Below are positions 1,702 to 62,295 of a stretch of 64,000 bases of DNA, piece by piece. The notes beneath the pieces were generated by a model. It was not told where the DNA came from, made no database searches, and worked only from the letters and a program-made list of their open reading frames with translations. The translations under genes and the position numbers were made by a program. Positions within the stretch are counted from its first letter, which is position 1; every line of letters starts with the position of its first letter. This DNA is from a virus. The stretch lies in IMG/VR virus record IMGVR_UViG_3300028840_002691, positions 41,095 through 105,094 of that record. One strand, given 5' to 3'.

Positions 1702-1879
1702 AGAAGTCCTAGAACAAATGCGCTACATAGACTGCAAATACTACCAGAGCAATTTCCGAGATTTTGATGGTTGCCCAGGTTTAGACTATGCTGGGGATGA
1801 TGAGGACTGTGGTGACTGCCCCTACAGGCTGTTCAAAGTTCAATCAGCACCAGAAAGAGGGTCTGGGCGGCTGATGTGA
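1688..1879 (+). CDS. Small Cys-rich hypothetical protein
   Basis: This 63-residue acidic protein has Cys at C16, C29, C41 and C44, the last two in CGDCPYRLF, which could bind one metal ion. It begins inside the last codons of the upstream gene, behind GGGGGAGGG. Two adjacent ATGs (1688, 1691) are possible. The start MMSIEEVLEQMRYIDCKY and the acidic middle are not recognised. Confidence 0.5.
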   Translation: MMSIEEVLEQMRYIDCKYYQSNFRDFDGCPGLDYAGDDEDCGDCPYRLFKVQSAPERGSGRLM

Positions 1880-1918
1880 TATTAGTGTAGTGATCTAGCA
1901 AGGATGACGGATTAGAAA

Positions 1919-2182
1919 ATGACCCCAGAAGAGCAACAGCTCATGGAGTTCATACGGGATGTGGTCACAGAGAACATCAAGCTCCACCTGCGCGAGATCG
2001 TGAAGCTCACCATCGAAAAAGGGGCCGAGGAAATGAGCAAAGCCGTGCACGAGAACTACACCGCACACCTGGAGAACCTGCTGGGCCGATTGGAGATGCT
2101 GGAGCTGCAGGTGCGCCAGCTCCAGAGCATCATCGACCAGGAGGCAAAAGAAGAGTTCCGGAGGTACTACAAGCTGCAATGA
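1919..2182 (+). CDS. Coiled-coil protein, candidate small terminase subunit
   Basis: This 87-residue, almost entirely helical protein has heptad-like leucines from about residue 48 to 75. Its TGA overlaps the ATG of the large terminase gene (ATGA), so the two are probably translated together. The small terminase subunit usually lies at this place and has a coiled-coil oligomerisation region. No helix-turn-helix is evident, so the call rests on position and coiled-coil content only. Confidence 0.4.
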
Positions 2183-3870
2183 GAGACAAACCCACAGACG
2201 AGCTAATAGGCTTTCTAATCAGCTATATGAAGAGGCCGCCCACCGATGCCCGTGACCGCAGCGTGCTCAACTCGGCCATCGGAGCATTTTACAGCCGTGA
2301 GGTCACCGCCGGAGAGCTGAAAGCCCTGTGGAACGCTTTCGGCGAGCACGGCATTTATCATTCTGATCTGTTGCACTTCTACATACGGGTGTTCCTGGGC
2401 TACGACATACCGCGCAAGAGGTTCTGCCGTCAGCACATTGCTCCCTTTACCTTCATAGAGCAGATGTTCTTTGAGCGAGTGAGGAACGCCATCGCCTTCG
2501 CCAATCGCACGGGGGGCAAGACCATCAACGTGGCCATTCTCAACCACCTGAACATGCGCTTCAAGCCGGAGTGCGAGATAGCCTCCGCGGGGGCCATTCA
2601 GGCGCAGGCCGACCGCATGTACGGGTACTTCCAGAGCTTCCACAAGGGGGAGCTGTTTGCCCCGCTGCTGGACGGCGACATGACCAAGAGTAGGAGCTTT
2701 TACCAGAACGGCTCAAAGATAGAGATCATCACGGGCAGCGTCAAGGGCCTAAACAGCCCCCATCCGCACAAGGCAATCATAGACGAGGTGGAGCTGATGG
2801 ACTGGGCCGTGCTGCAGGAGGGCCTGAGCATGACTATCAGCTCCAAAGACATCATGGCGCAGCAGATCTTCTGCTCCACCCGCAAGTACGAGCTGGGCAC
2901 CTTCCAGCGCTTATTAGACAAGGCCAAGAAGACCTCGGGTGAGCAGGGCTACGTCATATTCAAGTGGTGCATTTGGGAGATACTGGAGAAGTGCAGAAGG
3001 AAATGCAAAAAGGACCCGCGCTACGGCGACTGCCCCATTGAGCACGTCTGCCACGGCAGGGCGCACAAGTGTTCTGGTTTCTATGATCTTTCTGATTTCA
3101 TAGATAAGGTGCTCACACTGGACAAGGACACTCTGGACGCGCAGTGGTTCAACCGTAGACCATCAAGGAGTCTGCTGGTCTACGGCGACTACTGGAACAA
3201 GGCAGTGCACTTTATACCCCGCAGGCAGATCCAGGGCACGGTGGTGAAGATCGCTTCCTTGGACTTCGGCTCCAGCCCAGGGCACGACTTCGTGTTTCAG
3301 GTGTGGGAGGTGGACGTAAGCAAACTAAAGGCCCAGCTGGAGGAGCTGGGGCCTGGAGAGATACCCACCGCCAAGCCTGTGTTCTACCTCACTTACGAGT
3401 ACAGGGCCGGAGGCTCTCCGCTGGAGAACCATGCGCGGTGGATAAAGAGCTGTCCGTTTTGGGATGAGGACTTGATCATATTCGCCGACCCTTCGGCCAA
3501 GCAGCAGCGCCTGGACCTGGAGGCCACCTACGGCATCAGCACCTTTGAGGCCAACAACGCCGTGACCGCAGGCATAGACTCCGTGCGCAGCCACATGCAG
3601 ATCCGTGGCGACAATGAGACCTACTTCTACATCTTCAACGACTACCTGGACAAGACCGATAAGAAGCTCAAGGGCACGCATGAGGAGTTCGCCCTTTACC
3701 GATACAAGATAACCCCAGACGGCAGGCCTGATCCCGAGAAGCCCATGCAGGTGAACGATCACGGCATGGACGCCACTCGGTACGCCATAGCCAGCGCCGT
3801 GCCCTACTTTGTGGAGATGTTTACCCCAGTGTTTGAGGACATCGTTGAAGACGAGGAGTGGCCATTCTGA
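2179..3870 (+). CDS. terL: Terminase large subunit
   Basis: This 563-residue protein would be the ATPase-nuclease motor that packages DNA into the prohead. The ATPase domain shows a Walker A variant NRTGGKT about residues 108-115 and a Walker B strand KAIIDEVEL about 197-205. The nuclease domain starts with ASLDFGSS about 358, which carries the first metal-binding Asp of the RNase-H-like fold, and a second acidic motif, IIFADPSA, lies near 434. Length fits large terminases. It overlaps the upstream coiled-coil gene and the downstream gene by stop-start overlaps. Confidence 0.9.
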
Positions 3871-4469
3871 TGAATGAAGAACTGAAAGCCGAGTGCGCAG
3901 AACTGATCCGAAAGTACCAGTGCTACAAATATGAGTCTTACAAGGTGAGGTGTAGGAATGCGTTGTTTGTAAAAATGCAGCCTTGGATGACAAAGTGGAT
4001 TAAGAAAATATGTGTCTCCTGGAATAAGCGCGAAACCAATGAGGAAGTGCTCTCTTTGAGTTGGGACGCCTTCTACTACTGTCTGGAAAACTACAAATGG
4101 GGTGGCAACAACATACCTGAACACTTTTACAAGTACACTCGCTATTGGATGCTCAACCACTACGCAGTGAAAGACACCGTGAGAGTACCGTTAGAGGAAT
4201 TTGAGGAAATAATGAAACTGGCCGAAGAGCCAGCAACTAGAGCTTTTTCAATCTTGGCCAAGCTGCATAGGCTAAAGTTGGCGGTTCCTGAGAAGTACAG
4301 AGTGATGTTGGATGATGCTCTCCTTTCTTTACATAATGAATCTGTTTATTCTAATAAAGGAAAGAAGTCAAAATGCCCAGGAGTTAGGAGTTCTGCGTAT
4401 TATGAAATAAAGGAGATTTTTAAAAGCATTATAACTACTTATGTATTAGGAATAAAGAAGACAAAATAG
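3870..4469 (+). CDS. Sigma-factor-like helical protein (putative)
   Basis: This 199-residue protein starts at the ATG overlapping the terminase stop, behind GAGGAG. Residues about 45-95 contain EEVLSLSWDAFYYCLENY then FYKYTRYWMLNHYA. This resembles the pattern of sigma region 2 (a helix with E-x-x-x-x-x-W/F, then F-x-x-Y-x-x-x-W). The C-terminal 60 residues are helical and could be a region-4-like domain. The resemblance is by eye only. If correct it could direct host polymerase to late promoters. A terminator-like hairpin follows the gene. Confidence 0.4.
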   Translation: MNEELKAECAELIRKYQCYKYESYKVRCRNALFVKMQPWMTKWIKKICVSWNKRETNEEVLSLSWDAFYYCLENYKWGGNNIPEHFYKYTRYWMLNHYAVKDTVRVPLEEFEEIMKLAEEPATRAFSILAKLHRLKLAVPEKYRVMLDDALLSLHNESVYSNKGKKSKCPGVRSSAYYEIKEIFKSIITTYVLGIKKTK

Positions 4470-51222: not shown

Positions 51223-52203
51223 TTGGTAGGGCAGCTGCTACCTTTGGAATCTGATTCTAGTTTGCTTGGAACTGCTGATGTGATGCAGATGATTCCAAGG
51301 CGAACGACGGTTGATGACATTAGGGAAGAGTATCGAGATGAGGAGTTCTACTTCGACTTCGAGAGGAAGCTCAGCTATGGGGCGTGCTTCGTGGTGGAGC
51401 TTTTCATAGATCCGATAGAGGATGTTTTGTCTACTTTCCCTAATCTGGAATTAAAGTATGGTACCAATGGAAGTGGACTAACCCTTTTAGATGCCAAGAG
51501 ATTCTTGAGAAAATCCCTTGGCTGGAAACATGAAAAGATAGAAAAAACGGTTAGAGAGATAAAAATTTTTTTGAAATCCAGAAATCTATGGTATGCTAAT
51601 AATAAAAAGGAGGTAACACAAATGGCTAAGAGAAAGAGTACGGCAAAGGCAACGAAGAAAAAGGCAGTGGCTAAGAAGGCTGTAGCACCGAAGATCCCAG
51701 AGGGTTTGGAAAGAGTAGCCAAGGCACTTAATGTCAAGCTCACTGGGTCTGATGGGAATGAACATCGTGATCAACTTCTTGATGTCGTGTATAAGATGGA
51801 TGAGGATGAGTACGAGAAGCTACCTCAATATGTGCATGATTGGGCTACGGCTGCTGATGCGGTGAGGAAGTCGATGGACAAGGAAGCTGCTGATGCTGGG
51901 GAGAAGAAGGTTACCAAGGCTAAAGGCAAGAAGAAAAAGGCGGTTCAGAAGAAGAACATGAAGGAGGCCGCTGTATCTCCAAATGGCAATCCTTTCAAAC
52001 AGGGTTCTAAGTACGCTTTTGTTTTCGATTGTCTTTCTAAGAAGCCTCATACGATTGAGGATCTTTCGAAGATTCTAACAAAGAAATATGGTGAGAAAAC
52101 GGGAAAGAAAGGCAATGTCAGCGTGTATGTGAAAACGATTGGGACCAAGACTGGAAGACTTACTGGCGATTCGAAGGAAGGATTTCAGATTGCAGCATCT
52201 TAG
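51223..52203 (+). CDS. Long frame: hypothetical protein joined to DNA-binding-like protein
   Basis: The frame is open for 326 residues from TTG 51223 (internal ATG near 51280 also possible). Residues 1-120 (DDIREEYRDEEFYFDFERKL, AKRFLRKSLGWKHEKIEKTV) form one alpha/beta domain. The frame then reads through a promoter, ribosome binding site and ATG at 51622 without a stop. So either the upstream gene lost its stop and now makes a fusion, or a full-length and a short product are both made. Confidence 0.55.
   Translation: MVGQLLPLESDSSLLGTADVMQMIPRRTTVDDIREEYRDEEFYFDFERKLSYGACFVVELFIDPIEDVLSTFPNLELKYGTNGSGLTLLDAKRFLRKSLGWKHEKIEKTVREIKIFLKSRNLWYANNKKEVTQMAKRKSTAKATKKKAVAKKAVAPKIPEGLERVAKALNVKLTGSDGNEHRDQLLDVVYKMDEDEYEKLPQYVHDWATAADAVRKSMDKEAADAGEKKVTKAKGKKKKAVQKKNMKEAAVSPNGNPFKQGSKYAFVFDCLSKKPHTIEDLSKILTKKYGEKTGKKGNVSVYVKTIGTKTGRLTGDSKEGFQIAAS
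51569..51597 (+). promoter_or_regulatory. Phage-family promoter inside an open frame
   Basis: TTTTGA, 17 bases, TATGCT, with GAAATCC and TATGG as in the other copies, followed by AAAAAGGAGG. It lies within coding sequence of the 51223 frame and drives the gene at 51622. Confidence 0.7.
51622..52203 (+). CDS. Lys-rich protein with C-terminal winged-helix-like domain
   Basis: This 193-residue protein starts at ATG 51622 behind AAGGAGG. The N-terminus is Lys/Ala-rich (AKRKSTAKATKKKAVAKKA), histone-tail-like, with a second Lys-rich linker at about 103-125. The C-terminal 60 residues (GNPFKQGSKYAFVFDCLSKK, IEDLSKILTKKYG) look like a winged helix. Its own promoter and a strong terminator make it a separate highly transcribed unit. 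Possibly a nucleoid-type or regulatory DNA-binding protein. Confidence 0.65.
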   Translation: MAKRKSTAKATKKKAVAKKAVAPKIPEGLERVAKALNVKLTGSDGNEHRDQLLDVVYKMDEDEYEKLPQYVHDWATAADAVRKSMDKEAADAGEKKVTKAKGKKKKAVQKKNMKEAAVSPNGNPFKQGSKYAFVFDCLSKKPHTIEDLSKILTKKYGEKTGKKGNVSVYVKTIGTKTGRLTGDSKEGFQIAAS

Positions 52204-52225
52204 TCATCATCAACTATTATCATTT

Positions 52226-52272
52226 GCCCAGGTGTATCAACCCATTGCGGTGAGATATGCCTGGGCTTTTTT
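52226..52272 (+). terminator. Intrinsic terminator
   Basis: GCCCAGG (52226-52232) pairs with CCTGGGC (52260-52266), extended by TGTATC/GATATG with two G-U pairs to about 13 bp. TTTTTT follows at once. It separates the small-gene block from the nucleotide module. Confidence 0.8.
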
Positions 52273-52283
52273 GTGGAGTTTTT

Positions 52284-52565
52284 ATGATTAGGACAGAAGA
52301 CCTGGCTAAGAAATTCTTTGAAGTAAGCAAGGAGTTACAGCAGCTTTTTGCTAAGAAAAACTTTGACTATGGCAATGATCAGATCAAAGCTTTTGGTGAC
52401 TTTGGTATTCTTGTTCGTTCTTATGATAAGATTCAGAGGTTGAAAAACATTTATCAAAAGAAGGAGCTATCAGTCCCTGAAGAGACGATTGACGACACGT
52501 GGAGGGATCTTGCTGTTTATGCTATTATGGCTGTCATGTATCGGAACGGGGAGTGGGAGAAGTAG
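52284..52565 (+). CDS. Nmad1-like (DUF1599) protein
   Basis: This 93-residue protein starts at ATG 52284 with GGAG five bases upstream. KKNFDYGNDQIKAFGDFGIL about residue 24, RSYDKIQRLKN about 45 and DDTWRDLAVYAIMAV near the end match the nucleotide-modification-associated domain 1 pattern (K-K-N-x-D-Y-G ... R-x-x-D-K ... D-T-x-x-D-L). Family members are found in phage loci with DNA base modification genes. The stop overlaps the asparagine-synthase-like start. Confidence 0.7.
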   Translation: MIRTEDLAKKFFEVSKELQQLFAKKNFDYGNDQIKAFGDFGILVRSYDKIQRLKNIYQKKELSVPEETIDDTWRDLAVYAIMAVMYRNGEWEK

Positions 52566-53906
52566 ATGTGCGGGTTGAACTTCTGTACGATTGATCCTGA
52601 GACTTATATCCCTTTGATGAATGAAAAGATATCTTATAGGGGTATTCGTTCTAATTGGTATGTCTATGATGATCTTGGGTTTGGTCATGTTAGACTCCCA
52701 ATACAAGGCGTCGATGAAAAATACGATCAGCCGTTTGAGTATAAGAACTGGATCATTCTTTATGTTGGAGAGATATTCAACTATAAGAAGATAGACCCGA
52801 CTGCGAATAGTGATATTGAAGTATTGGCCAAGTCTTGGGATCTGTATGGTGAAGGATGCTTTCATCTGTTTGATGGTTTTTGGTCAGTTGTAGTTTATGA
52901 TAAACAGACAGGCGAGACTCATGTCTTTACAGATTTTCTTGCTAAGAAGCCGCTTTATATCCACAAGTACACGAGTTCTGTTTCTTCTGAGATAAAGTCC
53001 CTTTGTCCTTTTAATGGGTATAAGTATTGGCAGGACGAGTACTATTTTTCTTGTGTCAATAAATGGGGCTATTGCCTTAATGAGCATACTTTTATTTCTT
53101 CTGTTCGTAAGATTCCTCCTTGTACTCATCTTGTGATAAAGAACATGAAAGTGGTTTCCGAAAAGAGATACATGGGCATTTCTCCTAGAAAGATTCACCT
53201 AAGAGAAAAGATAGAAACTGCTGTCTATAATAGATTGGTTTCTGATATTCCTATCTCACTTGTATGTTCTGGTGGGTTGGATTCGTCTATTATTTATAAA
53301 TTGGTAGAGAAGAAGACGCATGATTTTACTATCTTTCATATTGATAACAAGGAGGGTGAATATCTTAACTATCTGAAGATTCCTGGTGATATTAATGTTG
53401 TGATGCTTTCGTTGGATCAGTTTGATTTGAATGAAGTGCTTTACTATAATGAGGGACCAGTTGATCTAGGTTCTGTGTTTCCTCAATATGAAATGGCCAG
53501 TGCTATTGCTGGTACCGGGTTGAGCGTCGCTCTTTCTGGTGATGGTGCTGATGAGTTGTTTGGTGGATATACTAGGATATCTGATTATGATTCTCAGTGG
53601 TCTGATGTATTTGAGGAGTTGGTTTATTATCATTTGCCGAGACTTGATAAGTTAATGATGGCTAAGACAATCGAACTGCGCTGTCCTTATCTTTCTGAAC
53701 CTGTGATTGCTGGGGCGCTTTCACTTCCTTATAAAGACAGGATGAAAAAGAAAATCTTGAAAGAAATGTTTTCTGATATTCTTCCAAAACAGATTATTGA
53801 AAGGGACAAGGTAGCTTTGAAGAGTAAAATGGTTTTGGAAGGTGGGTTGGAATGGCGATATTATCTTGTTAACAAATTCAGAGCGGAGGTATTTAATGAA
53901 TATTGA
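52566..53906 (+). CDS. asnB: Asparagine-synthase-like amidotransferase
   Basis: This 446-residue protein has Met-Cys2-Gly at the N-terminus, the nucleophile of class II glutamine amidotransferases (after Met removal). ILYVGEIFNY is part of the glutaminase site. The synthetase domain has the PP-loop VCSGGLDSS about 234 and ALSGDGADELFGGY about 320. The chain is shorter than bacterial AsnB (about 550). It could raise the host Asn pool or, given its neighbours, amidate a modified nucleotide. Very AT-rich. Confidence 0.8.
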   Translation: MCGLNFCTIDPETYIPLMNEKISYRGIRSNWYVYDDLGFGHVRLPIQGVDEKYDQPFEYKNWIILYVGEIFNYKKIDPTANSDIEVLAKSWDLYGEGCFHLFDGFWSVVVYDKQTGETHVFTDFLAKKPLYIHKYTSSVSSEIKSLCPFNGYKYWQDEYYFSCVNKWGYCLNEHTFISSVRKIPPCTHLVIKNMKVVSEKRYMGISPRKIHLREKIETAVYNRLVSDIPISLVCSGGLDSSIIYKLVEKKTHDFTIFHIDNKEGEYLNYLKIPGDINVVMLSLDQFDLNEVLYYNEGPVDLGSVFPQYEMASAIAGTGLSVALSGDGADELFGGYTRISDYDSQWSDVFEELVYYHLPRLDKLMMAKTIELRCPYLSEPVIAGALSLPYKDRMKKKILKEMFSDILPKQIIERDKVALKSKMVLEGGLEWRYYLVNKFRAEVFNEY

Positions 53907-54318
53907 TGACGCTGGGAGTGTTGTGGTACCGGAGCATGAAGATGATATGCTTAGATTGGTTTTTGCTAGACAGAGGGAGCTGATGGAGAAGTATCATCCG
54001 ATTGAGAAAGAAAAGGGATTATTGCAGGATGAAAATATTCCTGTGAATATTGATTCTCATCTTGGACAAGCTAGGTTAAAAGACTTTGCCTGGCGTGTTA
54101 CTGAAGAGATCGGTGAGGCGATGAATTGTTTGAAAAATAAACCTTGGAAACAGACTCAGATGCAGACAGATGTCCATCATTATTTAGAAGAGATTGTTGA
54201 TGCCTTTCATTTCTTTATAGAACTTTGTATTCTTTCGGGGATGTCTGCTGAAGATCTTTTCACTTTTTACTTCAAGAAGAGTGAGGTCAATAAGTTTAGA
54301 CAGCGGTCAAACTACTGA
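53896..54318 (+). CDS. All-alpha NTP pyrophosphatase, dUTPase-like
   Basis: This 140-residue protein starts at ATG 53896 behind GGAGG, inside the end of the upstream gene. RVTEEIGEAMNCLKNKPWKQ about 64 and HYLEEIVDAFHFFIELCILS about 90 carry the E-E-x-x-E and E-x-x-x-D metal-binding pairs of dimeric dUTPase/MazG folds, and the end VNKFRQRSNY is typical of the dUTPase branch. It would hydrolyse dUTP (or a related nucleotide) to the monophosphate, keeping uracil out of DNA. Confidence 0.7.
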   Translation: MNIDDAGSVVVPEHEDDMLRLVFARQRELMEKYHPIEKEKGLLQDENIPVNIDSHLGQARLKDFAWRVTEEIGEAMNCLKNKPWKQTQMQTDVHHYLEEIVDAFHFFIELCILSGMSAEDLFTFYFKKSEVNKFRQRSNY

Positions 54319-54833
54319 TGCGATCACTGAAACTTATAGAAAGATGTGTTCATAATTGCAGGAGGTGTGGTGATACCTTTGGCAACTCTGCCTGTGGTTT
54401 TGGCAAAGATGATAAGCCTTATGTCTTTTTTATAGGGACGAATCCGTGGGTTAAAGATCATGCTTTTGAGGATGGCAAGGGAATTTCTATTTTGAAAAGA
54501 AATCTGGCTGAATGGAAGTTTGATGATTTTTACTTTTGTAATATAGTAAAATGCCAAATGCCTTGGAATGGGAACCCGAGACAAGAACAGATCGATAACT
54601 GTAGGTCCTATTTGCTTGAACAAATAGAGGTTGTTAGACCAGGAATGCTGGTGTTTTTTGGTAAACAGGTTTCTGAATCGTTTGGTCTTCGATTTCTTCC
54701 TTGGACTTTTGAGAATTTTGGTGAACGCGATGTCCTTATCGTCCCGCACTTTTCATCTATTTTATATGGTGGGACAATTGAGGATATCAAAAGATACTAT
54801 AGAAGATTGAAGGAGGATTTGGATATTGACTAA
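54318..54833 (+). CDS. Uracil-DNA glycosylase superfamily protein
   Basis: This 171-residue protein has N-terminal C10, C14, C17 and C26, likely Fe-S ligands as in family 4 UDGs. FFIGTNPW about 38 replaces the usual G-E-A/N-P-G motif, NIVKCQMPWNGNP about 73 matches the N-x-x-K-C-x-P block, and IVPHFSS near 142 stands at the H-P-S motif. A second UDG domain is fused to the polymerase at 59148. It may remove uracil or a modified base from DNA. Confidence 0.65.
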   Translation: MRSLKLIERCVHNCRRCGDTFGNSACGFGKDDKPYVFFIGTNPWVKDHAFEDGKGISILKRNLAEWKFDDFYFCNIVKCQMPWNGNPRQEQIDNCRSYLLEQIEVVRPGMLVFFGKQVSESFGLRFLPWTFENFGERDVLIVPHFSSILYGGTIEDIKRYYRRLKEDLDID

Positions 54834-56068
54834 ACCCAGGGCACTTGGTGTTACATGTGGGATTGGAAGTATGTTGATTGGTGCCAGACAAGCTGGGTTT
54901 GATATTGTTGGCAATATTGAGTGGAGAAAATACTACCATACTGGAACGTTTGAATATAATTTCCCTGGTGCTTTTATGGTAAAGGAGCTGTCTGCTCTAT
55001 CGCCAAGGATAATTCGCTCTTTAAGGGGGATTGACTTGGTGATGGGGCATCCCTGACTGTGGTAACTATAGTATTCTTTTATCGAGTGGGGGGCATAACA
55101 AAAAGGAACTGATGGAGAAGAGAAAACATCCCTCGGATATTCCTTTGTTTATCAAACTTGTTTCTATTCTTAAACCCAGATTTTTTGTTATGGATAATCT
55201 TCCAGGAGCCATCTGTGCTGTTGGGCCAGATTTTTGGTCTTCTAATCTTTCTTCTTATGATATTTTTTTTGAGTGGGTTAGCAATTATCATTATGGTAAC
55301 TTACAGATTAGGAGAAACAGGCTGTTTATTATTGGTTGTCTTAGGGGCGAAAGTTTTACTTTTGTTCCTGGGGAGAAAGAATTATTCTTGTCTATGAAAG
55401 AGATCTTATCAGACCTTCTACCAGTTTCTTCGTATGGTAGATTTCCGAATCATAGCAAGTTAGACATGAAAGAGAGAGTTGGTGTTGGAAAGAGGATGAA
55501 TTTTTCTGGTTGTTATGATTATCGTTCTTTTGTGGGTTTTGATACGCTATTGGAAAGTGGTGAATGGTCTGATGTCCGAAGATATTTTTCTGCTGTCCCA
55601 GAAGGACATGTGATGACTTATATAAATAAGGAGGGACGGGTAGCAAGAAGAGCTGGTACTAGTAAACCATATTGGAGTGGTCATTCTCATGTTATTGATG
55701 GATCAAGTCCCAGTATACATCCAAAAAAGAATCTTCCTTTTACGATAAGAGAAAGGGCTCGTATTCAGGGCTGTCCGGATGATTTTGTTTTTATCGGTGA
55801 GAAGCTTAATAGTAAGGGAGAATGGGGTTTTTATAAGAATAGTAATCTAATTAAGCAAACCGGTAAGTTTATGCCTGTCCAATTTTGCAGGTATATCTCT
55901 GAGCAGATTATGGCTTATATGAAGGGTAGAAAATTCAAGTGTTCTGGAAGGCGGTTGATAAAAGAGAATCAATCTATCAGCGAGGCTAAGAAATGGTATT
56001 GTGAAAACGTTGGTTACTCTAATCAAAAACTAGCTTGTAAGTATTGCTGGCTAGATTGTGGGAGGTGA
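54826..56068 (+). CDS. DNA cytosine-5 methyltransferase with +1 frameshift at the catalytic motif
   Basis: The first frame (54826-55056) encodes motif I (LGVTCGIGSMLIGARQAGFD) and ends at CCC-TGA. The +1 frame continues DCGNYSILLSSGG and holds motif VI (FFVMDNLPGA), motif VIII (QIRRNRLFIIG), motif IX/X (RARIQGCPDDFVFIG, PVQFCRYISEQI). Joined, the product is 413 residues, a complete C5-methyltransferase with catalytic Cys at 55058-55060. Motif IV is H-P-D-C instead of P-P-C and motif VI is D-N-L instead of E-N-V. Programmed shift, mutation or sequencing error are all possible. Confidence 0.7.
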
Positions 56069-56073
56069 GCTAA

Positions 56074-56481
56074 ATGAAAGTAGAGGTTTTGTTCAATGGT
56101 ACTAAGATTACTTATGTTAGAATTGGTGATTTCTTCTATGATCTTCTTTTCTTGCTAGATGATCTTTCACCGTTGGATGCTCTTAGGAGTAACTTTAATT
56201 CTATTTTTGATCTTTTGTCTGAGTTTGGTTCGGTTGCTAATTCTTCTTCTATTGAATCTGCTGATAAAAGATCGATTTCTTCTATGTTGCATCAGGTTAA
56301 GAATCTTCGGGATCTTTTGAAGAAGGATCATGATCGTGAGTATTTAGTTAAGTTGAAATATGATTTGGCTTTGAAGTTGAAAGGGTTAGGATATCTGCCG
56401 GGTTTTAGTACCTGGACACCTATTGAGAAAGGTGCTTGCTGGTTCAATCCAGAAAGGAGAAGAATAACGAATGAGAATTGA
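56074..56481 (+). CDS. Hypothetical helical protein
   Basis: This 135-residue protein is preceded by GGGAGGTGAGC. It starts with a short strand (MKVEVLFNGTKITYVRIGDF) then helices with many Leu/Asp/Ser, and ends KGACWFNPERRRITNEN. Position between two DNA methyltransferases suggests a role in the modification module. No family recognised. Confidence 0.55.
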   Translation: MKVEVLFNGTKITYVRIGDFFYDLLFLLDDLSPLDALRSNFNSIFDLLSEFGSVANSSSIESADKRSISSMLHQVKNLRDLLKKDHDREYLVKLKYDLALKLKGLGYLPGFSTWTPIEKGACWFNPERRRITNEN

Positions 56482-57349
56482 GGATGCTAAATTTGAAATA
56501 GTTAACAAAAAATCTGGGAAAAGGTTGCCCAGAGACTATCATTGTTCTTGTTCTTTTTGCAAGGGTGGATATTCTGGAATGTTGATAAGGAGTGATGGTA
56601 GTAAATATAGCCGTCGTGTTCGTTCTTACTATTATGATGAAGGGGAGAGAGTTCATCCAGCAAAAACTCCTCTTCATTTGGCTCGCTATTGTGTACAAAC
56701 TTATACTGAATCGGGGGATTGGGTTTTTGATCCGACTATTGGTGCGGGAACTACTGCAGTAGAAGCTTTAAATTTTGATAGGAATGTTGTTGGGATAGAA
56801 CTTTGTTATTATGATAATGTTTTATTGAATATAAGAAAAAATTGTCGTGATGGTAAAAGATATAAAATCTTTCATGGCGATGCTATCGATTGTGGTAAAT
56901 TTCTAAAGAAAGCGGGGAGAAAGTTTAGATTGATTATTAACAATCCACCTTATTCTGCTGATACTATTGTTCAATGGGGATTTACTGGTAGTGGTAAGGA
57001 GGTAAGATATGAAACAGGTGAATCTGGAAATCTTGCCTTTAAAAGAGAGAATGATGAGTATTATAAATTTATTAGGGATATCTATCAAGAAGCCTGTAAG
57101 CATTTACTTTTTGGGGGGTATTTTGTAGTTGGTGTTAAGGATATGATGAGACAGAAGAAGCCCTATTTACTTCATTTCTATCTTGGAAAAATACTGGAAG
57201 AGTTTTTATCGTTTAAAGAAATGATTCTTCTTCCTCATTATCCCCCGACGTTGTTTATGAATACTTATAGAAAAAGGTATCCAGAGGTTGAGAAGATACC
57301 TTTATATCAAACTATTTTGGTTTTTAGAAAGGAGAAGAATAGCAAATGA
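56471..57349 (+). CDS. DNA N6-adenine/N4-cytosine methyltransferase (NPPY)
   Basis: This 292-residue protein has HPAKTPLHLARYCVQTYTES about 74, motif I DPTIGAGTTAVEAL about 92, a GIEL strand after it, and NNPPYSADT about 157 as motif IV. S-adenosylmethionine binding uses motif I, and the NPPY is typical of exocyclic amino methyltransferases. An N-terminal CSCSFCKGG may bind zinc. No restriction partner is visible, so it is an orphan enzyme, likely protective or part of base modification. Confidence 0.75.
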   Translation: MRIEDAKFEIVNKKSGKRLPRDYHCSCSFCKGGYSGMLIRSDGSKYSRRVRSYYYDEGERVHPAKTPLHLARYCVQTYTESGDWVFDPTIGAGTTAVEALNFDRNVVGIELCYYDNVLLNIRKNCRDGKRYKIFHGDAIDCGKFLKKAGRKFRLIINNPPYSADTIVQWGFTGSGKEVRYETGESGNLAFKRENDEYYKFIRDIYQEACKHLLFGGYFVVGVKDMMRQKKPYLLHFYLGKILEEFLSFKEMILLPHYPPTLFMNTYRKRYPEVEKIPLYQTILVFRKEKNSK

Positions 57350-58047
57350 GGATTTATAATGATCCTGTAGAGATGGTCAAGGAGGTTGAAAGAGATCTTT
57401 TTGAAATGGGTCTTCGTGTTGATTGTCATACTGTACAGGACAAGAATGTGGAAGGCGACTCGGATTATCAGAACCTTGAACTGTTTGGTTATACTTATCG
57501 ATTGACTTCTTTTACTTCTCAAAAACTTTCTGAGATGATTGCTTATATGAAAGGGAATGAAGAGTGGGCAAAACATGAATTAGTTGACCGTTTGTCGCCG
57601 GAGTATATCAATCCAGGTAAAGCATATAAGAAGTGGGAAAAGGTTTGGAAACCATTTTTAAGAGATGGGACTTTTTCTTATACTTATAACCAAAGGATTA
57701 GGGATCAACTTCCCTGTGTAATTCAAGAACTGAAAAAGAGGCCAAATAGCAGGCAGGCAATTATTACGGTTTATGACAAACATCTTGACATGAATAATTG
57801 GGGTGGGCTTGATCGTGTATGCTGTTCTCTTTACTATCAACTGTTCTATCGATCTGGTAAATTGAATATGATCTATTCTATGAGAAGTTGTGATTTTCTT
57901 ACTCACTTTGTTCATGATGTTTATTTTGCTATTGGTATTCTTAGATATGTGGCTAAGGAGTTGGACTGGGATGTTGGTTTCTTTATTCATTTTCTTGGCT
58001 CATTGCATGCGTTTAGGAAGGATATGGAAGGGAGGGGGATATTTTAA
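57346..58047 (+). CDS. Thymidylate-synthase family enzyme, Asp at the Asn177 position
   Basis: This 233-residue protein has RQAIITVYDKHLDMNNWGG before the active site, Cys160 in RVCCSLYYQ, and 13 residues later a YSMRSCD motif (R180-D183). Eight residues after D183 lies D191 (FVHD), the position of Asn177 in E. coli ThyA with the same spacing. Asp here is the known switch to dCMP in T4 dCMP hydroxymethylase. His in LGSLHAF matches His207, with Phe for Tyr209. So either dTMP synthesis or hydroxymethylation of dCMP. Confidence 0.75.
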   Translation: MRIYNDPVEMVKEVERDLFEMGLRVDCHTVQDKNVEGDSDYQNLELFGYTYRLTSFTSQKLSEMIAYMKGNEEWAKHELVDRLSPEYINPGKAYKKWEKVWKPFLRDGTFSYTYNQRIRDQLPCVIQELKKRPNSRQAIITVYDKHLDMNNWGGLDRVCCSLYYQLFYRSGKLNMIYSMRSCDFLTHFVHDVYFAIGILRYVAKELDWDVGFFIHFLGSLHAFRKDMEGRGIF

Positions 58048-58072
58048 TCTTATATCTAATTATCCAAAATAG

Positions 58073-58717
58073 ATGAAGAGGAGGCGAGATTTTATGGGAA
58101 ATAGAGAACATTGTCGGTTTGAATTTATCTCTAAAAGTGAGGAGAGAAAGGGGAATAAGAGTAAAAATAAACTGTGGGGTTTTATTTATGCTGTTTGTAT
58201 TTGTAATAAGGGTAGTCGGGTTTTGGAAATTAAGATCGGTAGGACGATTAAGGAGTTGTATCATTATATCTCTTCTAACTATGGAGGTTCTGTTTCTTTA
58301 ATCTATTATCTAATGATTCCTGTTGGTAATGTTGAGATGTGTGAGAAGTGGATAATAAATAGTGAATATATGAAGGAATATCCTGGTTCTACTAATGAAC
58401 GTTTTAATTTATCTGTTATGTGTATTTTACCCCAGATATTTTCTCAGGCTTTTACTTTATTTGGTTGTACAAATGGGATTGACAGAAGTTCTTATTCTGG
58501 GGATCGTTGGGGAAAACAGGGGTTACCGACTCATTCTGAGATTGTGAGTTATATCGTATCTAAGACGGGGGAGTGGCTTACTATTAAGGGTGTTTGTTCT
58601 TTTTTTGGTATTATTAGAAAGAAGAATAAAGATCATGCGTCTAGATATAATACCGTTTCTAGACGTCTTTTGGATATTTGTGGTAAAAACGTTGATGGTA
58701 AATATCTAGTTCCTTAG
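58073..58717 (+). CDS. GIY-YIG/T5orf172-like endonuclease with wHTH (putative)
   Basis: This 214-residue protein contains WGFIYAVCI and IKIGRTIKELYHYI, the Y-x-x ... K-I-G-x-T pattern of the MUG113/T5orf172 group of the GIY-YIG fold, with a Glu in NERFNLS. The C-terminal part (EIVSYIVSKTGEWLTIKGVC) looks like a winged helix. It interrupts the otherwise coupled nucleotide genes, as a mobile endonuclease would. ATG at 58073, with an alternative further in. Confidence 0.5.
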   Translation: MKRRRDFMGNREHCRFEFISKSEERKGNKSKNKLWGFIYAVCICNKGSRVLEIKIGRTIKELYHYISSNYGGSVSLIYYLMIPVGNVEMCEKWIINSEYMKEYPGSTNERFNLSVMCILPQIFSQAFTLFGCTNGIDRSSYSGDRWGKQGLPTHSEIVSYIVSKTGEWLTIKGVCSFFGIIRKKNKDHASRYNTVSRRLLDICGKNVDGKYLVP

Positions 58718-58720
58718 AAG

Positions 58721-59167
58721 ATGATAAATAGAGTATCTCTCGATAAAATCTTTATGGAGACAGCAAAACTATTTGCTGAAAGATCTACGTGCCTTCGGCC
58801 TAAAGAGATGAAGGGTAAGGTCGGTGCCGTAATCGTTCAGGATAATAGAATTGTCTCTACCGGATATACTGGTTCTGCTTCTGGTGATTCCCATTGTATT
58901 GATGTTGGTTGTGAGATTGATTCTAATACCGGAGGTTGTATAAGAACATTGCATTCAGAGACCAATGCTATAGCTTTTGCTGCTAGGAGTGGTATCAAGT
59001 TAGAGAATGCTGAGATGTTTGTTACTTTAAGTCCGTGTCTGGACTGTGCTAAGTTACTCGTTGCTTGTGGATTCAAAAGGGTTGTTTACTTGATAGAGTA
59101 CAGGGATGAAAGAGGAATCAAATATCTGAAAGATCATGGTGTGATTTGTGAGCGATATAGAGACTGA
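58721..59167 (+). CDS. dCMP deaminase
   Basis: This 148-residue protein has LHSETNAIAFAA about residue 77, with the zinc-binding His and catalytic Glu, and LSPCLDCAKLL about 104, with the P-C-x-x-C zinc ligands. AVIVQDNRIVSTGYTGSASG precedes. It converts dCMP to dUMP, feeding thymidylate synthesis. The last 20 bases overlap the polymerase gene. Confidence 0.85.
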   Translation: MINRVSLDKIFMETAKLFAERSTCLRPKEMKGKVGAVIVQDNRIVSTGYTGSASGDSHCIDVGCEIDSNTGGCIRTLHSETNAIAFAARSGIKLENAEMFVTLSPCLDCAKLLVACGFKRVVYLIEYRDERGIKYLKDHGVICERYRD

Positions 59168-61625
59168 TAAGAATTGTGGTAAATGCGGACAGTATAGAAA
59201 GGTAAGAAGTCCTAATATCCCTTGTGATGGTTATGGGAAGAAAGGTGTTCTTGCTGTTGGACAAAGTCCCGGAGTTGTTGAAGATAGAAAAGGAGAAAAT
59301 TTTGTTGGCAGCAGTGGCGATCTTGTTACTGATGTCATGCGTACTTATGGATTGGAGTTTAAACGAGATTTCTATGTTGCCAATGCTTTTAGGTGTAAGC
59401 CTTCTGGTAAGAACTTTTTGATGTATCAGAAGTGCTGTCACCATAGACTTGTTGGTGATATTAAAAGATTGAAACCGTGGTTGATTGTTGCTTTTGGAAA
59501 GGAGGCTATACAATCTGTCTTTGGGATCTTTCATCCGATTACTACTAAACAGTTTCAAGATCTTTTGATTCCACGTGTTGAGTATGGTTGCTGGGTATAT
59601 TGTACTTATCATCCTGCTTGGGTGATCAGGAATGAAAGGGACAACAAAGATCTTTTCATTGATGCTGTTGGCCGTATAGCAGAGTTGATTGAGGATTCGG
59701 AGGAAGAGGGGCTTGAGTTCGAGTGGAGGCATAGGACTGATTGGCAGCTTGATAATGTGGAGACTGTTACTGATTTTGACAAAGCCGTTGAATATCTGAG
59801 ATCGTTAAGGCAGGTTGAGAAGTTTGCTTTTGACTGGGAGAACTATCCATTAAGGCCTTTTTCAAATGACTCCAGAGTGTTATGTGTTGGTCTTGCTGTT
59901 GATGGTGATCATGGTAAGTGTATCCCACTGGATAAGATCCCTGTACCTAAGAGGGAAGTTTATTGGAGCCCACGGCAAAGAAGGATAATTGGACAAGAAC
60001 TGAAGGAGACTTTACAGACAGAAGGACCATTAAAGATAGCTCATAATATACAGCATGAAATGTTGTGGACAAAGTTCATCGGAGCTGAATTGGCGAGACC
60101 GTGGACTTGTACTATGGTCCGGCAGCATTTAAGATGGGAAAAGTCCGGTGCTGGAAAGAATGGTTGGTACGGGCCGAAGTCGTTAAAGTTCCAGATGTTT
60201 GCTAGGCGTGGTTTGTGGCCTTATGATGAACATTTGAAACCTCCCAATATGAACTATGGGCTACTTAATGACAAGGATTTGTTTGACTATAATGCTTGTG
60301 ATGCTAAGTTCACTTACTGGCTTTATGATGAACAAGAACGAGAGAATTATCGTGGTATCGGCGTTGCTGAGAGAATACACATTGAATACGGCTGTAAAGC
60401 CATGGCCGAGATGACTTGGAATGGCGTCGAAGTTGATAAGAAAGTTGTTTCTTCTTTGTCTGGCGAATGGCAGGATCAGTTAAAAGAAGTTAAGAGTGAA
60501 CTGATCAATTGTTCTTATGGGAGGAAATGGAAGAAGAAATATAAAACAGAGATTGATCTGAATAGTGGCAAACAGGTTGGTGAAATGCTTTTTGAGATAC
60601 AGAAGCTTCCTGGAGGTAAGAAAACGCCGAAGAGTGGACAATGGAAAACTACTGAGGATATCATTCAAGATCTCATTAAGAAAGGATATGAATGGCCTAA
60701 GAACTGGTTGAGATATAAGAAACTTGAAAAGGCTGTCGGTACTTTTCTTAAAGGATATCTTGAAGATCAACTTCATGATGATGGTAAACTTCATCCTTCG
60801 TTTGGTCTTGGAGTTGCTGAGACATATCGGGGTCAATCTGATAGTCCTAATATGCAGAATTTCCCAAATAGGGAAGCACTGGTTGGAAGGGAGATCAGGA
60901 AGGCTATCTATGCTCCTAGAGGGTGGGAGATTGGCGAGTTTGATTATAGTCAACATGAGGTTCGTGTGCTTGCAATGTTATCTAAGGATAAAGTTCTTAT
61001 TGATAATATTGTAAGTGGGCATGATTTTCATGAGGACTATGCTGCCAAGATAATGGAGAAACCGGCTAGTAAGTTAACTACGAGAGAAAGGGATGAAGGG
61101 GGTAAAAGGATTTTTGTTTTTCCTATTTTCTATGGTTCTGGTTGGAGGAGTATCTATGAGGACTTGGTTGCTAACGGTTTTAAAGTAAGGGAAAAAAATG
61201 TAAAGCATGTTTACTATGCTTTTAAAGAGAAGTATTCGGGGGTGACAGCATTTCAAAAGAAGCTTGCTGAGTTCTTTAGAGATAATGCTTATGTTGAAAC
61301 ACCTTTGGGATATAGACGGAGGGAACCAATGACTTATACGGCTTTGGTTAATTTTCCCGTCCAGAATGTTGCCTTTGCTTTACTTCTTTATGCTGCTGCC
61401 AAGACGATGGATGCTATTAAGGATCAGGAAATGAAGGCAAAGGGGATATTTCAAATACATGATTCGGCTGGATTTATTTATCCTAAAAATGAAAGACGGC
61501 AGCTTTTTGATCTTGTTCTTGATAATTTTTTGGAGTTCCCCTGGAAGTTTACGGAAACTGTACCACTTAAGGTCGGTGCTAAAGTTGGGAAGAATTGGCT
61601 CGAGATGAGGAAAATAAATTTATGA
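59148..61625 (+). CDS. polA: DNA polymerase I-type with N-terminal UDG domain
   Basis: This 825-residue protein has a UDG-like domain at residues 1-190 with NCGKCG, AVGQSPG, NAFRCKPSGKN and TYHPAW. A 3'-5' exonuclease starts with FAFDWENY about 225. The polymerase core has motif A EFDYSQHEVR about 597, motif B KRIFVFPIFYGSG about 653 and motif C QIHDSAG about 768. It starts at GTG 59148 within the deaminase gene. Family A replicative polymerase of the phage; fusion suggests that uracil or a modified base is checked during synthesis. AT-rich. Confidence 0.85.
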   Translation: MSDIETDKNCGKCGQYRKVRSPNIPCDGYGKKGVLAVGQSPGVVEDRKGENFVGSSGDLVTDVMRTYGLEFKRDFYVANAFRCKPSGKNFLMYQKCCHHRLVGDIKRLKPWLIVAFGKEAIQSVFGIFHPITTKQFQDLLIPRVEYGCWVYCTYHPAWVIRNERDNKDLFIDAVGRIAELIEDSEEEGLEFEWRHRTDWQLDNVETVTDFDKAVEYLRSLRQVEKFAFDWENYPLRPFSNDSRVLCVGLAVDGDHGKCIPLDKIPVPKREVYWSPRQRRIIGQELKETLQTEGPLKIAHNIQHEMLWTKFIGAELARPWTCTMVRQHLRWEKSGAGKNGWYGPKSLKFQMFARRGLWPYDEHLKPPNMNYGLLNDKDLFDYNACDAKFTYWLYDEQERENYRGIGVAERIHIEYGCKAMAEMTWNGVEVDKKVVSSLSGEWQDQLKEVKSELINCSYGRKWKKKYKTEIDLNSGKQVGEMLFEIQKLPGGKKTPKSGQWKTTEDIIQDLIKKGYEWPKNWLRYKKLEKAVGTFLKGYLEDQLHDDGKLHPSFGLGVAETYRGQSDSPNMQNFPNREALVGREIRKAIYAPRGWEIGEFDYSQHEVRVLAMLSKDKVLIDNIVSGHDFHEDYAAKIMEKPASKLTTRERDEGGKRIFVFPIFYGSGWRSIYEDLVANGFKVREKNVKHVYYAFKEKYSGVTAFQKKLAEFFRDNAYVETPLGYRRREPMTYTALVNFPVQNVAFALLLYAAAKTMDAIKDQEMKAKGIFQIHDSAGFIYPKNERRQLFDLVLDNFLEFPWKFTETVPLKVGAKVGKNWLEMRKINL

Positions 61626-61648
61626 GATTGAAAAACGTATGGTATGAT
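61620..61648 (+). promoter_or_regulatory. Phage-family promoter (before 61669)
   Basis: TTATGA, 17 bases, TATGAT, with TATGG extension and the AAAATAAAGGAGG that follows the promoter at 44279 as well. It starts the transcription unit of the zinc-ribbon protein, SSB and recA. Confidence 0.7.
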
Positions 61649-61668
61649 GAAAATAAAGGAGGCAGAAA

Positions 61669-62295
61669 GTGGTAAAACGGAAAACCAAAAAACAGCAAGA
61701 TGATGTTGAATTTCCACAGTACGTTTCGGTATGCGAGAGCTGCGGGGAGACTTATCATTTCCCACTGGAGGACGAGCACATAGACCTGTGTAACAAGTGC
61801 GTAGAGAAGGACTACCGCGAGGAGCTGGCACTGAACAGGTTCAGCCTGGAGGAGCACGCCGAGACCCAGCCACAGAAGCTGGAGAAGTGGTACGCGGCAC
61901 TGGTAGAGATGAAGGACATCTACTACGGTGTAGAGCAAGATTTGAAGTCCGTGAAGGCTCGGCTGGACGGCGACATAAGGCTGTGCGAGTCTGCTGATCT
62001 TGAGGACTTGTATGGCATACAGAAGCTGACGGAGGGGGCGATAACCAGCGCCATAGAGCGCCATGCAGACTACCTGCAAGCTACTAGGCTACAGCGGCTG
62101 GCGTGGAGGAGGAGGGAGATTCTGAGCTCTGCTGTAGATGCTTTCAGGGATAGGAGCAGTATGATAAAGGTGCTGAAGGATCTGTTCGTAAGCCAATACT
62201 TTGACCGTACAGAGGGGGTGGTGAGCAGAAAAAGGGAAGAGACTATAGGCAAGGACATCAGAGTACCTAGAAGAAAGAAAGGAGGCAACGACTAA
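61669..62295 (+). CDS. Zinc-ribbon helical protein
   Basis: This 208-residue protein starts at GTG 61669 behind GGAGGC. VCESCGETYHF about 20 and DLCNKCVEKDY about 36 form a zinc ribbon. The rest is helical and charged (EKWYAALVEMKDIYYGVEQD) with a basic C-terminus. It lies directly before the SSB gene, so a recombination-mediator or SSB partner role is possible. GC-rich again. Confidence 0.55.
   Translation: MVKRKTKKQQDDVEFPQYVSVCESCGETYHFPLEDEHIDLCNKCVEKDYREELALNRFSLEEHAETQPQKLEKWYAALVEMKDIYYGVEQDLKSVKARLDGDIRLCESADLEDLYGIQKLTEGAITSAIERHADYLQATRLQRLAWRRREILSSAVDAFRDRSSMIKVLKDLFVSQYFDRTEGVVSRKREETIGKDIRVPRRKKGGND

Follow-up and report, generated by a model that had tools for sequence, protein, structure and literature searches.

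The methyltransferase locus and its frame break

The window analyzed here, a stretch of 64,000 nucleotides, comprises bases 41095 to 105094 of a 105,094-base IMG/VR virus record, a contig that carries the terminase, portal, head-morphogenesis, and tape-measure genes of a tailed phage. A low-GC stretch at about 52 to 62 kb (GC of 0.36 to 0.42 versus 0.48 overall) consists of nucleotide and DNA modification genes, and from 52000 to 62000 the codon usage is also distinct, such that this block, in a contig of 48% GC, looks like an acquired nucleotide modification module. It holds genes for an asparagine-synthase-like amidotransferase and a dUTPase-like protein near the C5-cytosine methyltransferase (MTase) gene that concerns us, a UDG-family protein gene (54318 to 54833), an N6/N4-type DNA methyltransferase gene (56471 to 57349, plus strand), a thymidylate synthase homologue (57346 to 58047), and a family A DNA polymerase with an N-terminal UDG-family domain (59148 to 61625). 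The presence of a separate UDG-family gene and a thymidylate synthase homologue near the UDG-polymerase fusion suggests modified pyrimidines.

The C5 MTase gene lies on the plus strand and is divided between two frames. An AGGAGG ribosome-binding site, read from the sequence at 54811 to 54816 within the end of the UDG-family gene, is followed 9 nt later by a TTG start at 54826, which opens a zero-frame ORF of 76 amino acids (54826 to 55056) encoding the MTase N terminus from the motif I region to the residues GHP. Its tail reads GTG ATG GGG CAT CCC TGA, with CCC at 55051 to 55053 and TGA at 55054 to 55056, and the bases from 55048 to 55060 are CAT CCC TGA CTG T. Read instead from 55052, the +1 frame continues with CCT (55052 to 55054), GAC, TGT (55058 to 55060), and GGT, translates as P-D-C-G-N-Y-S, and stays open until the TGA at 56066 to 56068, giving 338 codons and a stop (55052 to 56068) that contain the HP-D-C motif IV and all later motifs. 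Because a TGA at 55040 to 55042 closes the +1 frame on its upstream side and the TGA at 55054 to 55056 closes frame 0, the sole interval able to hold the frame change is 55043 to 55056 (TGGGGCATCCCTGA, plus strand), at the end of which lies the shift-prone stop CCC_TGA_C (55051 to 55057), where CCC can re-pair as CCT. The initial annotation had placed the zero-frame stop after MGHP and had the chain and its catalytic Cys restored by CCT GAC TGT, and both statements agree with the sequence, the frames, and the family matches described below.

The first ATG of the +1 frame opens an ORF of 318 amino acids (55112 to 56068) that lacks the catalytic Cys, and its predicted product would be unable to act alone. 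No ATG, GTG, or TTG precedes the catalytic Cys codon (55058 to 55060) in this frame, so that re-initiation yields no Cys-containing protein; with the catalytic Cys in neither ORF that begins at one of these codons, there is no enzyme without a shift. Two other ways around the stop were considered and rejected. Reading TGA as a sense codon leads frame 0 to a TAA and a TAG within five codons, and transcriptional slippage is rejected at a site without an A or T run.

Integrity of the enzyme and its relatives

The read-through chain of 413 amino acids matches the C5-cytosine methyltransferase family PF00145 (6e-18), and the profile of this MTase family matches M.HaeIII (PDB 1dct; 2e-17), which it resembles both in sequence profile and in its catalytic Cys: Cys78 of the chain, within HPDC, falls on M.HaeIII Cys71 in the profile alignment, the position being counted from that alignment. 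The catalytic Cys and motifs VIII, IX, and X that place the protein in PF00145 come together in the read-through chain only. It differs from M.HaeIII in having a motif IV of the form HP(D/E)C, a motif VI of DNLP or DDLP, and a Cys-rich C terminus. This last feature, WYCxNxGYxxQxxACxxCW, is conserved in the family (56000 to 56065 in the window, with Cys392, Cys404, and Cys407), lies outside the standard C5 MTase core, and is possibly zinc binding.

The initial annotation had described the downstream motifs as undamaged in the +1 frame, and the family alignment confirms this. Of 15 relatives compared, at least 14 agree at 91 alignment columns; the window protein deviates at none of these, whereas most unshifted relatives deviate at several. 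Relative to upstream divergence, downstream divergence ranks first of 40, yet two unshifted relatives (L113 and L128) have practically equal ratios. By neither measure was the further damage of a decaying pseudogene found, and no other clear frame break came up when the 105-kb contig was surveyed for coding potential. An undecayed gene implies one of two things: a break that is recent or an artefact, or continued production of the enzyme.

The alignment-based search recovered 46 related IMG/VR loci (43 distinct proteins), each of which keeps its frame across the site; the patterns used in that search contain motif IV and hence lean toward unshifted copies. Peptides outside motif IV, which are unbiased against shifted copies, found 11 relatives at 36 to 51% identity, and two degenerate DNA-pattern scans designed to pick up shifted copies gave 5 and 10 loci, with no member of this MTase family among the 15. 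With the nearest relative at about 51% identity, a shift confined to close kin would have escaped these searches, and near-identical records may be left out of the set that was searched. No closer kin were found by way of the DNA polymerase and only one, at 26%, by way of the terminase; cultured phages gave matches of 25 to 34% and none at the DNA level, plasmids gave matches of about 25% only, and genome contigs gave none. On the aligned sequences, CCC_TGA is not an evolved recoding site common to the family. The initial annotation had named unshifted relatives, coupled with extra decay in this copy, as the outcome that would count against programming: the relatives are indeed unshifted, but the decay is not there.

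Several relatives differ in how the MTase genes are arranged. Two tandem copies of the family occur in some of them (L005:3808-6188 and L122:1616-4275). L008 (5001 to 7253) encodes a 751-amino-acid fusion of the C5 MTase with an N6/N4-type MTase, across the whole of which a 768-amino-acid protein of L111 aligns; the window and L154 have the second MTase in a gene of its own nearby. This recurrence of the N6/N4-type partner, fused or adjacent, suggests that the two MTases work as a conserved pair.

The L154 homologue (1810 to 3972) contains an in-frame intein of about 290 amino acids immediately before the catalytic Cys (HPE / CIVSGD...VMKN / CGNFS), at a point no more than 6 nt from the position of the frame break in the window. 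The intein has a DUF559/MTES_1575 nuclease domain; its match to Intein_splicing (4e-6) is under the Pfam cutoff, and its match to TIGR01443 is above the cutoff. From its position, assembly of the L154 active site would require splicing. A search of the literature gave nothing useful on inteins located at the catalytic Cys of an MTase.

The CCC_TGA site beside known +1 frameshift sites

Programmed +1 sites had been suggested as a parallel to this break, and the likeness is apt. The sequence CCC_UGA is documented to be shift prone: of 19 E. coli genes with this ending, half shift at more than 1%, and the site in pheL shifts at 15% in E. coli and at 1.9% in Salmonella (PMC5009743). The MTase gene shares CCC_UGA with pheL, whose leakage serves no known purpose; pheL, however, encodes a leader peptide with no downstream enzyme dependent on shifting. 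The Listeria phages PSA, A118, and A500 use a CCC_UGA +1 shift for tsh (PMC5009743), with the slip codon, stop, and CCC-to-CCU re-pairing identical to those proposed here and likewise in a phage gene; there, however, the shift yields an additional product from a structural gene, while in the MTase it is needed for any enzyme, at a site that is unconserved. SPP1 uses CCCUAA (PMC6316719), again a phage case of a rare CCC that re-pairs as CCU when a stop follows, but the stop is UAA, the product is an extension of the tail tube, and the ratio of gp17.1 to gp17.1* has been demonstrated. The release factor 2 gene, prfB, with its CUU_UGA, shares with the MTase a short stub and a stop-dependent +1 shift that yields the active protein, and differs in its strong Shine-Dalgarno (SD) sequence and wide conservation.

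The window has a slippable P-site codon directly before a stop with the remainder encoded in the +1 frame; the stimulators of a programmed site are less apparent. A GGGG ends 3 nt ahead of the slip codon, the same spacing as in prfB. Its anti-SD pairing energy of -5.8 kcal/mol is equalled at 14.5% of window positions; for E. coli prfB the energy is -10.7 kcal/mol, computed on what we take to be the prfB sequence. Of 35 unshifted relatives whose site is HP-D/E-C, 7 also have GGGGCAY at this position, so the G run follows from the choice of Gly-His codons. Downstream RNA folding is at the level of shuffled sequence (z of -0.05 to 0.64), and no phage tRNA able to explain shifting was found. Thus, neither a distinctive SD sequence at the 3-nt spacing nor downstream structure accompanies CCC_TGA. 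With neither standing out, and with all 46 loci in frame, the suggestion of programmed shifting is not supported.

How readily such a site arises by accident was estimated from random one-base insertions over 42 unshifted family genes. A stop fell within one codon in 11.5% of cases; 0.74% gave a slippable codon followed by a stop, and 0.09% gave CCC_TGA. When only insertions extending runs of at least two were counted, the latter two values were 3.2% and 0.47%. Coincidence is possible but not trivial. Among coding-like plus-strand ORFs of the contig, no other end in CCC plus a stop was found, the MTase stub itself being too short for that coding filter.

Origin and consequences of the frame break

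We favor, as the probable explanation, an otherwise intact C5 MTase bearing a lineage-specific or artefactual +1 indel that happens to lie on a leaky site, error included. The indel would fall at codons 76 to 77 and may have arisen recently in the phage itself or, less likely, during sequencing or assembly. It would have created CCC_UGA, a stop context that leaks into the +1 frame at about 1 to 15% in E. coli. If the third C is real, a site so intrinsically leaky leads us to expect low full-length MTase without any evolved program, most likely a 76-residue stub and a few percent of complete enzyme; an MTase needed in small amounts may thereby have its loss softened. According to the authors of GeneTack, a frameshifted gene that stands as a singleton is likely to be an error or a recent indel (PMC3711429), and in our own weighing phage genes very rarely carry genuine +1 programming, which cannot be said of single indels (PMC3711429). 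Counted against the indel are the rarity of the outcome, with CCC_TGA produced by only 0.09% of random insertions and any slippable stop by 0.7%, a gene without any decay, and the absence of any other break in the contig or of a frameshifted relative, which indicates that stray indels are rare in this material. Simple error, a sub-case of this explanation whose likelihood overlaps with it, is improbable taken by itself: the break is a singleton on one metagenomic contig, with the rest of the gene intact and all relatives in frame, but the C run is only three bases long, and the survey of the contig showed no second break.

A programmed +1 frameshift that evolved in this lineage, in which slow or RF2-limited termination at UGA allows a CCC-to-CCU slip of peptidyl-tRNA-Pro, is about as unlikely as error. 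It would explain the exact CCC_UGA_C, the prfB-like position of the G run, a stop right at the frame change, and an intact downstream frame, and it has a precedent at the same slip site in Listeria phages (PMC5009743); the rarity of CCC_TGA among random insertions keeps this reading alive. Against it, no relative shares the site, the nearest available being about 51% identical, the SD sequence is weak and ordinary, the G run recurs in unshifted relatives, and no structure was detected. Two other origins are far less probable. The scar of a homing-endonuclease cut, in which repair adding one base would also have destroyed the target site, draws on the nuclease-bearing intein of L154 directly before the Cys, 3 to 6 nt from the indel; yet this is a single distant intein with a presumed cut site, phages seldom use error-prone repair, and coincidence is easy within a conserved motif. 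The lowest standing belongs to a two-subunit MTase assembled from both ORFs, like known split C5 enzymes. An AAGGA does lie just upstream of the second ORF's ATG at 55112, but with no ATG, GTG, or TTG ahead of the Cys codon in the +1 frame, neither product would contain the catalytic Cys, and the idea was rejected; only initiation at ATC 55049 would rescue it.

If the extra base is an artefact, the case cautions against calling CCC_TGA breaks in single metagenomic contigs recoding. If it is real, the indel preferred here would be a natural one that happened upon a stop where ribosomes leak, and thus a test of whether a few percent frameshifting is enough for a phage enzyme to survive. Under programming, enzyme level would track termination efficiency, as in prfB, and among phage modification enzymes this one would be, as far as we found, the first with a +1 switch. 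That synthesis of the phage MTase is gated by a stop-dependent +1 shift at its catalytic motif is doubtful, slightly more so than programming as such, but were it true, modification of the phage DNA would follow the state of host release factor 2, tRNA-Pro, or EF-P.
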